Source: an alpha proteobacterium MED-G10
GTDB taxonomy: Bacteria > Pseudomonadota > Alphaproteobacteria > Methylaequorales > Methylaequoraceae
Length of the DNA: 47,530 nt
Assembly: GCA_002457065.1 (NCBI GenBank)
Contig: NTKR01000004.1
Span: 1 to 47,530, forward strand
Direction: 5' to 3'
Shown: positions 7,396 to 12,000 of the stretch, one piece after another
How the letters are laid out: each line of letters opens with the position of its first letter
How positions within the stretch are numbered: the first letter of the stretch is position 1
Notes under the pieces: model-generated
Database searches by the model: none
What the model saw: the letters and a program-made list of their open reading frames with translations, nothing else
Told to the model about the DNA's origin: nothing
Made by a program: the position numbers and the translations under genes

Positions 7396-8268
7396 TTAAT
7401 CTTGTCCAAGTTTATAAACCAAGAAATTATTCACGGAGAAATTTAAACCAGTATCTTTATTAAAATTCGCAATACAATCTTTAATGATTGTCTTATTGTC
7501 AATAACGAATGTTTGTTCCAAAAAGCAAACCTCAGAATAGAACTTTTTTATTTTACCCTCAACAATCTTTTCTATAATATTTTCAGGTTTTCCAGATGAC
7601 TTAACTTGTTCAGAAAATATTACCCTCTCTTTCTCAACCACATCAGGACTTAAACTTTTAATATCCATTGATAAGGGATCAGCAGCGGCAATATGCATAC
7701 ATAGCTGTTTAGTAAAAGATTCAACATCTTTTCCATTATCTTCCGCGGAAAAAGAAAGTAAAACCCCAATTTTCCCTGAATTTGGAGAGATAGCATTGTG
7801 AAGGTACTTCTGATAAAAAAGACCAGGCTCTGAAAAATAATTTAGGCGTTTAATCACAATATTTTCTCCTAATTTTGCAATTACATTAGTTAGTTCCGTT
7901 TCAACTAACGTATCAGAATTGATAAAATTAGATTTAAGTAATGAATCTTTATCTTTTACTTCATATTCCAAACAAGTGTTTGCAACATCATCACAGAACT
8001 TTTGAAAAGTCTCATTTCTTGCAACAAAATCTGTTTCAGAATTAATTTCAACTATTACACTACCCTTTTTTCCAGTAGCTACGTTGATAAGACCCTCTGT
8101 AGCAAGACGTGATGACTTCTTTTGCGCTGTATTTATACCTTTTTTTCTTAGCCATTCTTCAGCTTTTTCAATGTCACCTTCATTTTCTGAAAGAGCCTTT
8201 TTGCAATCCATCATTCCAGCACCAGTTTTTTGCCTAAGAAGTTTAATAGTTTCAGGTTTTATGCTCAT
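7396..8268 (-). CDS. tsf: Translation elongation factor Ts
   Basis: EF-Ts is the guanine-nucleotide exchange factor for EF-Tu. The N-terminal UBA-like module carries the signature [17 protein letters not shown] (residues 10-26) and AEEWLRKKG. The core has the conserved [18 protein letters not shown] and the C-terminal LEQTFVIDN block that contacts EF-Tu. Length 290 is normal for alphaproteobacteria. The ATG overlaps the rpsB stop in an ATGA arrangement, so the two are probably translationally coupled and share control through the rpsB leader. Confidence 0.97.
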
Positions 8269-8969
8269 TCTTTATCGCTCTTTTTCTTATGTGAATTTGC
8301 ACTATTTTTTATAGATTGAGATATAGCATTACAGTAATATTCGATAGATCGTATGGCATCATCATTTCCTGGAATTGGATAATCTATTCCATCTGGATCA
8401 GAATTTGAATCAACAACAGCCACTATCGGAATGCCAATTTTATTAGCTTCCTTAACAGCTAAAATTTCTTTATTGGTATCTATGATAAATAATAAATCAG
8501 GCTTACCTACCATATCTTTTATACCTCCAAGAGCTTTATTCAATTTTTGAGCAGAATTTTCAAACTTAAGTATTTCTTTTTTTGTGTATGAAGAAATTTT
8601 GTTTTCAAGTATGTCTTCTATATTTTTCAATCTCCTAATTGAATTCTGGATTGTATCCCAATTTGTAAGCATACCACCTAGCCATCTTTTGTTAATAAAA
8701 TACTGTTTACAATCAACTGCGTATTTTTCAATAATGTCTGATGCCTGTCTTTTGGTCCCAATAAATAAAATATTTTTACCTTGTGATGAATAATCATTTA
8801 TTATTTTTAATGCATCGTTAAAAAAAGCCACTGTTTTTTGCAAATCTATAATATGGATCCCATTTCTATGGCCAAAAATGTATTCAGACATCTTTGGGTT
8901 CCACCTATTCGTTCTATGTCCAAAGTGAATTCCAGCGTCTAAGAGATCTTTAATGGTAATTTTATACAT
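8265..8969 (-). CDS. rpsB: Small ribosomal subunit protein uS2
   Basis: S2 is a late-assembling protein of the 30S subunit. The N-terminus [20 protein letters not shown] and the central blocks [28 protein letters not shown] and [20 protein letters not shown] are textbook S2. I use the ATG at 8969 (234 residues) rather than one 13 codons upstream. It matches the family N-terminus and has GGAG 7 nt before it, and the upstream extension would run through the leader hairpin. Overlaps tsf by 4 nt. The 5' leader can hide the Shine-Dalgarno, see the separate entry. Confidence 0.96.
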
Positions 8970-8976
8970 AATAATA

Positions 8977-9024
8977 CTCCGGTTATACATACACACAACA
9001 AATATCACCAGAGCTGTTGTGCGT
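8977..9024 (-). promoter_or_regulatory. rpsB leader RNA: hairpin plus loop/Shine-Dalgarno pseudoknot
   Basis: In the rpsB transcript, ACGCACAACA (9024 to 9015) pairs with UGUUGUGUGU (9000 to 8991), giving a 10-bp stem with one G-U and a 14-nt loop. Loop bases CUCUGG (9013 to 9008) can pair all six positions with CCGGAG (8982 to 8977). That segment contains the GGAG Shine-Dalgarno of rpsB. The result is an H-type pseudoknot covering the ribosome site. Ribosomal protein leaders commonly work this way, with the free protein stabilising the closed form. Binding of S2 to this RNA is inference. Confidence 0.65.
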
Positions 9025-9037
9025 TTGAGTTAAAAAG

Positions 9038-9065
9038 AATTTACATTTTTAATTATTTAATTCAA
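9038..9065 (-). promoter_or_regulatory. Candidate sigma70-type promoter for rpsB-tsf
   Basis: On the minus strand TTGAAT (9065-9060) is followed after 16 nt by TAAATT (9043-9038) with an upstream TG. The position just after the dnaE stop and before the leader hairpin fits. The -10 is a 4/6 match in very AT-rich DNA, so this is tentative. Confidence 0.35.
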
Positions 9066-9073
9066 CATTTTTT

Positions 9074-12000
9074 TTAATTTGTCCTTATAACATCAACTAT
9101 ACCTGTTATCTTTCTTAAGGAAGAAATCTCATCTAAATTAATTTCAAAGAAATGATCACTTTTTATTTTTATTTTTTGATCATTATGATGGATATAAAAA
9201 AGTATTTCACAATCACCTCTCTTGTTTTGACGAAAAAATTTTTCAAATTTTAAATGATCAATCAATTTAGGGTTGATAAGTACTTCAATTTTTTTTCTTT
9301 GATTATTGATTTTTTCTATATTTGTCAAAGAGACCACTATAAATCTATCAGAATCTTTTAAATTCTGTAATGAAAGTTTTACTAAAACAATCTTTCCTTC
9401 AGTCAATTCAAAATCTAGACTTTCTAAAACCTCTGAAAAACAAATAGTATCTAGTTCTCCGGAATCATCAGTTAATTTTAGAAAACAAAACTTCTTTCCA
9501 AGTTTTGAAGTTCTTTCCTTTTTTTCTGAAATTAAAGCGATCACACTTTTGCTAATGTTTGAAGATTTGTCTAATGTATTATCAAAAAGTTGACTTAGGT
9601 TCGATATTTTTTTATCTCTAAAAAGAGTTTTATATAACTTTGTTGGATGCTCAGTTAAATAAAAACCAAAAGCATCATATTCCATTTCTAACTTTTTGCT
9701 AAACTCTAAGTTATCAAAATTTGATGAATCAAAAAAATTTGCGTCTAAGTCCTCTTTAAAAAGACTATTTTGATTTTGTATAAAATTTTTGTGAAAATTT
9801 ACATTGAAGGAAATTATCTCATCCATTTTTTGGAGCAAAAAATTTTGATTATCCTCTATAGATTTTAGAGATTCTGAAAAAATTAAAGCCTCTATTATTT
9901 TTTTATTCAATGTGCTGTTATTTAGTCTTTTTAACAAATTTCGTAATGAAGTAAATTTTCCATTTTCTTCACGTTCTTTCACTATTTCTATCACAGAATT
10001 TTCACCGATGTTTTTAATAGCACTTAAACCAAAATTTATACCAAATGGATTATTATTTTTATAAATAACTTTAAAACGTGCCTGCGAGTTATTGATATCT
10101 GGTTTTATCATTTCAAAATTAAACTTTTTTACTTCATTACAATAACTTGAAATTTTTTCAAAATTACCGATATCACAATTCATTAATGAACATAAAAACT
10201 CTAATGGATAGTTTGCTTTTAAAAAAGCTGTTTGGTAAGCAATCATAGCATAAGCTGCTGCATGACTTTTATTAAAACCATATCCTGCAAATTTTTCAAT
10301 TTCGTCAAATAGTTCTGAAGCCTTTTCTTCAATGAGTCCATTTTTTACACAACCTTCAACAAAATTTGATTTTTGGGCGATCATTTCAGACTTGATTTTT
10401 TTCCCCATTGCTCTTCTAAGTAAATCTGCCTTTGCTAGGCTAAAACCAGCAACTTTTTGTGCAATTAGCATTACTTGTTCTTGGTAAACCATAATCCCAT
10501 AAGTTTCATCAAGGATTTTTTTCAGTTCATTATGAATGTAAGAATAACTTTCTTTGTTTTGCTTTCTATTTATGTATGTTTGGATGTTGTCCATAGGTCC
10601 TGGTCTATAAAGGGAAACAACAGCGATTAAATCTTCAAACCTGTCCGGTATAATGTTTTTCAAAGTTTCCCTCATACCCTGGCCCTCTAGCTGAAAAATC
10701 CCAGTTGTATTCCCACTTCTTAATAGTTCAAAAGTTTTTTTGTCATCTAAAGGAATAGAATCGATATCAATAAAAATTTTTCTTTTTTTTAAATTTTCAA
10801 TTGCCTCTTGAATGACTGTAAGTGTTTTTAATCCGAGAAAATCAAATTTAATTAAACCTATTTTTTCAACATATTTCATAGAAAACTGAGTAACAGGAAC
10901 ATCTGACTTTGGGTCTTTATATAATGGAACCAGGTTTTTAAGTGACTGATCTGAAATTACAATTCCTGCTGCATGTGTTGATGCGTGTCTATACAAACCT
11001 TCAAGATTTTTAGAAATTTCAAAAAGCTTTTTTATATTAATATCGTTGGAAATAATTTTTTTTACTTTTTCATCACTTTGCATAAACTCCCTAAGACTAA
11101 CTTGCTGAGCAGGATTGAAAGGAATCATTTTACAAAGATCGTCAACTAGGTAAAGTGGGAGCTGCATAACACGACCTACATCTCTTATTGCAGCTCTAGC
11201 CTGAAATGAACCAAATGTAATTATTTGAGCAACATTAGAAGTTCCATATTTTTTTTGTACATACTTAATAACATCATCTCTTCTATCCATACAAAAGTCT
11301 ATGTCGAAATCAGGTAACGATACTCTTTCAGGATTTAGAAACCGTTCAAAGAGTAGTCCAAATTTGATTGGATTTAAATTAGTAATGGACAAACACCAAG
11401 CCACAAGAGAACCAGCTCCAGAACCTCTTCCTGGACCAACTGGGATATTATTATCTTTCGCCCAGTTTATAAAGTCAGAAACTATTAAAAAATAACTTGA
11501 ATATCCCATTTTAGTAATAGTATCTAGTTCATAATCCAATCGTTTCTTGTAAATATCTAGCTCATCACTAGAAATTTCATTTTTTATACGAGACTTCAAT
11601 CCATCATAGGATTTTTTTTTCAAAAAAACATTTTCATCTGTATTGTCTAATTCAACTTTAGGTAATTTTGGAGGTTTTTCTTCTAAGAAAAAATTACATT
11701 TTTTTGCCAATAAGACAGTATTTTCGGTCGCATCCTTTAAATCTGAAAATTCACTCAACATTTCTTTTTCACTTTTAAAACAAAAATTATTATCGCTTTT
11801 TAATCTGTCTTCTGATTCAAGATATTTTTGTTGAGATATGCTTAATAAAGCGTCATGCGAATCAAAAAAACTTTGTTCAAGAAAAAAATTTTCATTTGTT
11901 GCTACAAGTGGAATTTTCATTACATTAGATTGCTTAATTAAATAATTAAAATATTGGTCTTTCTTACTTTCTTTTTTTTGTATTTCTAAAAAAAAGTTGT

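Follow-up and report, generated by a model that had tools for sequence, protein, structure and literature searches.

Introduction

Does the short leader upstream of rpsB in this alphaproteobacterium carry an operator for ribosomal protein S2, and, if so, how would S2 act on it? In E. coli, S2 present in excess acts on the rpsB-tsf leader and, assisted by S1, represses translation of rpsB; tsf expression falls too. The ribosome-binding site (RBS) reportedly does not form part of the S2 operator, and for this reason the mechanism of S2 is described as unclear (PMC10931766). Meyer et al. (2009) found an "rpsB motif" in most Alphaproteobacteria and beyond, and proposed that it serves S2 autoregulation (PMC2704228). 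The motif is built on a stem, P1. Two arms, P2 and P3, vary in length and can be lacking altogether, and J2-3 forms a pseudoknot with the sequence that extends P1 on its 3' side. In the majority of Gammaproteobacteria P2 is very short or does not occur (PMC2704228).

A preliminary description of the DNA analyzed here (a 47.5-kb stretch, hereafter the window) had proposed that a hairpin ahead of rpsB hides the Shine-Dalgarno (SD) sequence in a loop pseudoknot, that the leader may belong to a computationally proposed alphaproteobacterial class, and that S2 could set the level of EF-Ts as well. Here, we examine the leader in the window, in its family and across the class.

Results

A hairpin with loop pairing upstream of rpsB

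The leader occupies the gap that separates the dnaE stop (9074) from rpsB on the minus strand (Table 1). The segment ACGCACAACA (9024-9015) pairs with UGUUGUGUGU (9000-8991) over 10 bp, including one G·U, and encloses a hairpin loop of 14 nt (9014-9001). Loop sequence CUCUGG is complementary to CCGGAG at six out of six positions, one of them a U·G, and the rpsB AUG follows at 8969-8967. The hairpin and its loop pairing at these coordinates are thus confirmed as real features of the leader, and the proposed pairing between the 14-nt loop and CCGGAG is borne out by the sequence. The stated overlap of tsf and rpsB is also correct.

Table 1. Features of the rpsB leader and neighboring genes in the window.
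Feature	Position	Strand	Details
Likely sigma-70-type promoter, dnaE-rpsB gap	9038..9065	-	TTGAAT (9065-9060), 16-nt spacer, TAAATT (9043-9038), TG at 9045-9044
P1 5' strand	9015..9027	-	Outer C9027-A9026, internal loop A9025-A9024, stem C9023-A9015
Pseudoknot 5' strand CUCUGG, in hairpin loop	9008..9013	-	Followed by UG; CYGGUG conserved
P1 3' strand	8988..9000	-	Stem 9000-8992, internal loop 8991-8990, outer U8989-G8988
Pseudoknot 3' strand CCGGAG, also Shine-Dalgarno (GGAG)	8977..8982	-	From pairing counts; 7 nt to AUG
rpsB (ribosomal protein uS2)	8265..8969	-	Relatives in the genus 84-88% identical
tsf (elongation factor Ts)	7396..8268	-	Start overlaps rpsB end by 4 nt (AUGA)

The isolated hairpin folds at -14.3 kcal/mol (z -2.55). 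For the whole leader of 71 nt the energy alone is unexceptional (z -0.84), and therefore the case for the structure rests on relatives. We also scanned both strands of the window for stems of 10 bp or more that have a start codon at SD distance and a hexamer in the loop able to pair with sequence 3' of the stem. The rpsB leader was the single site of this kind, and 10 Markov resamples of one strand yielded no comparable site.

The TTGAAT-TAAATT block probably serves as the rpsB promoter. TTGA or TTGT, a spacer of 16 or 17 nt and then (T)GTA occur at the same place in 22 of the 24 family leaders described below; the exceptions are L005, which is cut by a contig end, and L012, where the form is diverged. 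Transcription from this promoter would start shortly before P1 and leave a 5' UTR of about 60 nt.

Covariation of P1 and the pseudoknot in the family

Sequences of rpsB with upstream DNA were collected from the genus and family of the window and from other Alphaproteobacteria. Genomes of the family, which is probably of marine origin, measure 0.9-2.0 Mb (most of them 1.0-1.4 Mb), and their rpsB loci contain 26-31% GC. The family alignment comprises 24 distinct leaders.

Compensatory changes in relatives had been chosen beforehand as the test of this structure, and they are seen in the stem: at least one double-sided change was found in 9 out of 11 counted P1 pairs. The whole structure pairs in 95.1% of the alignment cells compared to 84.5% in shuffles, and none of 500 shuffles reached the covariation score of the alignment. 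When the partner is shifted by 1-3 columns, pairing falls to 25-46%. The same P1 stem is recovered unprompted by RNAalifold. What is conserved is the stem formed by 9023-9015 with 9000-8992, together with an outer C9027-G8988 pair that is present in 24/24 leaders and lies, in most of them, across a 2x2 internal loop. The 10-bp hairpin was thus correctly read in its letters and coordinates, but its outermost pair, A9024-U8991, is private to the window; the other leaders have A·A, A·C or A·G in the same column. The hairpin loops stay short throughout the family.

The pseudoknot pairs form in 97.2% of cells, and the CUCUGG/CCGGAG pairing is therefore kept in the family. Three of its six pairs are invariant (columns 31, 33 and 34), one changes from U·G to C-G, another from C-G to A-U or U·G, and pair 30-67 is broken in 4 of the 24 leaders. 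Because of these invariant columns and the broken pair, the in-family support for the pseudoknot comes mainly from compatibility and not from double changes. CYGGUG is present in all 24 leaders. Along with AACCGGA and the outer C-G, this block is maintained despite the free drift of the P1 stem. The invariant CYGGUG could be a protein-contact sequence instead of the product of a pairing constraint.

One further family member (L024; genome G006, genus g4) has neither CYGGUG nor AACCGGA upstream of rpsB. It is the only member with readable rpsB upstream DNA that lacks the motif. This is a single leader that contains Ns, and the absence may reflect assembly quality or true loss.

The pseudoknot strand and the Shine-Dalgarno sequence coincide

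In 24/24 family leaders the 3' strand of the pseudoknot is the only SD, ending 4-8 nt before the start codon, and no other SD-like GGA, AGG or GAG was found between that strand and the start in any of them. Across 108 distinct leaders from other Alphaproteobacteria the distance from pseudoknot to start is 6-23 nt (median 15), and in 103 of them a distinct purine SD comes after the pseudoknot. The suggestion that CCGGAG contains the rpsB ribosome site is therefore upheld, with the qualification that the overlap is typical of the family of the window and not of the class. While the rpsB motif itself was already known, the coincidence of pseudoknot strand and only SD throughout this family is new.

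Five leaders outside the family lack a separate SD: L043, L135, L145 (genome G190), L147 (G286) and L156 (G143). They are possible independent pseudoknot-SD fusions in other alphaproteobacterial families. A DNA pattern for such fusions over the class proved too loose in GC-rich genomes to be used for counting.

A search with RF00177 for 16S rRNA in genomes G000, G003 and G017 found nothing, and the 16S tail was taken from a relative in the family, G005. Its 3' end reads GGATCACCTCCTTTC, which is complementary to the SD, and so GGAG of CCGGAG should be usable as SD. The duplex energies of the two competing pairings, with loop costs not included, are -7.2 kcal/mol for loop:SD and -6.1 kcal/mol for SD:anti-SD. 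Since these values are close, a bound protein could tip the balance.

Leaders across the Alphaproteobacteria

Two sequence blocks, CYGGUG within the loop region and AACYGGA or AACCAGA 3' of P1, recur in rpsB leaders of Rhizobiales, Rhodospirillales, Acetobacteraceae and small-genome alphaproteobacteria. Pseudoknot pair 4 is C-G in most of the class, U·G in the family of the window and U-A in several lineages (Commensalibacter L051, L064 and L075; Lichenicoccus L100; L120; L148 and L154 of family f94); a lone C-A row at this pair is an artifact, since the regular expression put the anchor in the wrong place. At pair 5, G-C and G·U occur. Variation across the class is thus compatible with the pairing. 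For the six columns, in strings anchored by regular expression, the observed pairing was reached by 14 of 2000 shuffles, and this class-wide control gives only moderate support for the pseudoknot.

A covariance model built from the family leaders finds rpsB leaders in distant alphaproteobacterial families (L100, E 2.8e-7; L116, E 1.9e-6; L124, E 5.8e-6), and L116 and L124 are themselves above the cut-off of Rfam model RF01815. In the window's own genome the rpsB site stands alone (E 4e-18).

Two further features of the class leaders were observed. In L148 and L154, from genomes of 1.3-1.4 Mb, the possible pairing between loop and 3' strand extends beyond six positions (AAUUCUGG with CCAGAAUU in L148), and a separate SD lies downstream; this amounts to a longer pseudoknot in another small-genome lineage. 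Most class leaders and some genera of the window's family (L023, L025-L027) have GGAGG after P1, an SD-like sequence retained in the operator far from the start codon; the main genera of the family have a GAAUGU-like sequence in its place.

A reduced form of the known rpsB motif

The proposed membership of the leader in the alphaproteobacterial rpsB class is right in anatomy and position (PMC2704228). The leader agrees with the published motif in its location directly 5' of rpsB, in a long P1 that covaries in the family, in the pseudoknot between loop CYGGUG and the P1 3' extension AACYGGA, and in the conserved blocks. It differs in having neither P2 nor P3, which the published definition permits. 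A second difference is that the pseudoknot strand of this family is the sole SD and lies close to the start codon; most leaders in Alphaproteobacteria have their SD apart from the pseudoknot, further 3'.

Comparison with Rfam, which the preliminary description had recommended, did not recover the leader. In the window, RF01815 had no hits that reached the gathering cut-off of 40 bits, nor any at E <= 5 over 8900-9130. It also had none in 20 loci of the family and none at rpsB in the family's genomes, although it does score other alphaproteobacterial rpsB leaders. The model apparently misses the family because P2 and P3 are missing. Weak Rfam matches to mir-210 and 6A in the window were dismissed as chance. 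As the anatomy of the motif is there and the Rfam cut-off is not reached, we file the leader as a reduced variant: judged by its sequence, it is a minimal and diverged form of the alphaproteobacterial rpsB motif.

Discussion

The interpretation that we favor, and consider probable, is that the rpsB-tsf mRNA begins with an H-type pseudoknot that has the SD as its 3' strand, and that the SD is occluded when S2 binds. Free S2, perhaps together with S1 (an rpsA gene is present in the genome), would bind and stabilize the pseudoknot when it exceeds its uptake by new 30S subunits. CCGGAG would then be held in the loop pairing, the 30S subunit could not bind at the rpsB start, and translation of rpsB, and with it that of the overlapping tsf, would drop. 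S2 is the putative ligand by virtue of class membership, and both the direction of the effect and the coupling to tsf, and thus to the level of EF-Ts, would follow by analogy.

That analogy is with the E. coli rpsB-tsf leader (Aseev et al., 2008, as reviewed in PMC10931766), where a conserved structure also precedes rpsB-tsf and S2 is a translational repressor that lowers tsf. The occlusion step cannot be carried over from E. coli, because the RBS reportedly lies outside the operator there, unlike in the window, where it is inside the pseudoknot. The arrangement in this family itself suggests direct occlusion. The E. coli rpsO (S15) and alpha-operon (S4) leaders likewise place the RBS of a gene for a ribosomal protein within a pseudoknot. 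Those pseudoknots serve autoregulation, a role that is putative for the leader described here; sequences and proteins are unrelated, and the two leaders are examples of mechanism only. Whether the whole family, and separately a few others, fused the S2 operator with the SD, lost the original SD and came to be repressed by direct occlusion, unlike E. coli, is a broader proposition for which we consider the chances to be even.

The main rival to occlusion is entrapment of the 30S subunit. The pseudoknot would then be a platform recognized by the 30S via S1, on which S2 halts the initiation complex in the manner of E. coli S15 and S4, and the SD overlap would position the ribosome rather than hide the SD. 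Pseudoknots are high-affinity targets of S1, the S4 leader acts by entrapment, and effective repression by S2 in E. coli needs S1 (PMC10931766). However, with the SD inside the pseudoknot helix, a bound 30S would have to open the helix or use part of the SD, and we consider entrapment unlikely.

It is also conceivable, but quite improbable in our view, that the pseudoknot keeps the rate of translation constant, low, or dependent on temperature or Mg, and that protein feedback is gone in this streamlined lineage. Reduced genomes often lose regulation, and P2 and P3, usual in the class, are missing here while P1, the loop and the SD strand remain. Against this, CYGGUG, AACCGGA and the outer C-G pair are maintained although the stem drifts freely. 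Moreover, the class definition does not require P2 and P3. Most Gammaproteobacteria have no P2 or only a very short one, and S2 control is known from one member of that group, E. coli. Ordinary coding or a chance hairpin is exceedingly unlikely: in the window, an open frame of 247 aa starts at GUG 9008, but this N-terminal extension of rpsB is open and in frame in only 3/24 leaders, the window included, and was rejected because relatives do not keep it, while chance is countered by the compensatory pairs and by the empty resamples.

It follows from the Rfam searches that RF01815 overlooks an entire family of Alphaproteobacteria. The family is probably marine, and its leaders are a reduced form of the motif. 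In these leaders of about 60 nt, a single stretch of six bases is both putative operator strand and ribosome site, which makes them a compact object for distinguishing occlusion from entrapment. The fusion of operator and SD in this family thus makes the question of how S2 acts easier to test.
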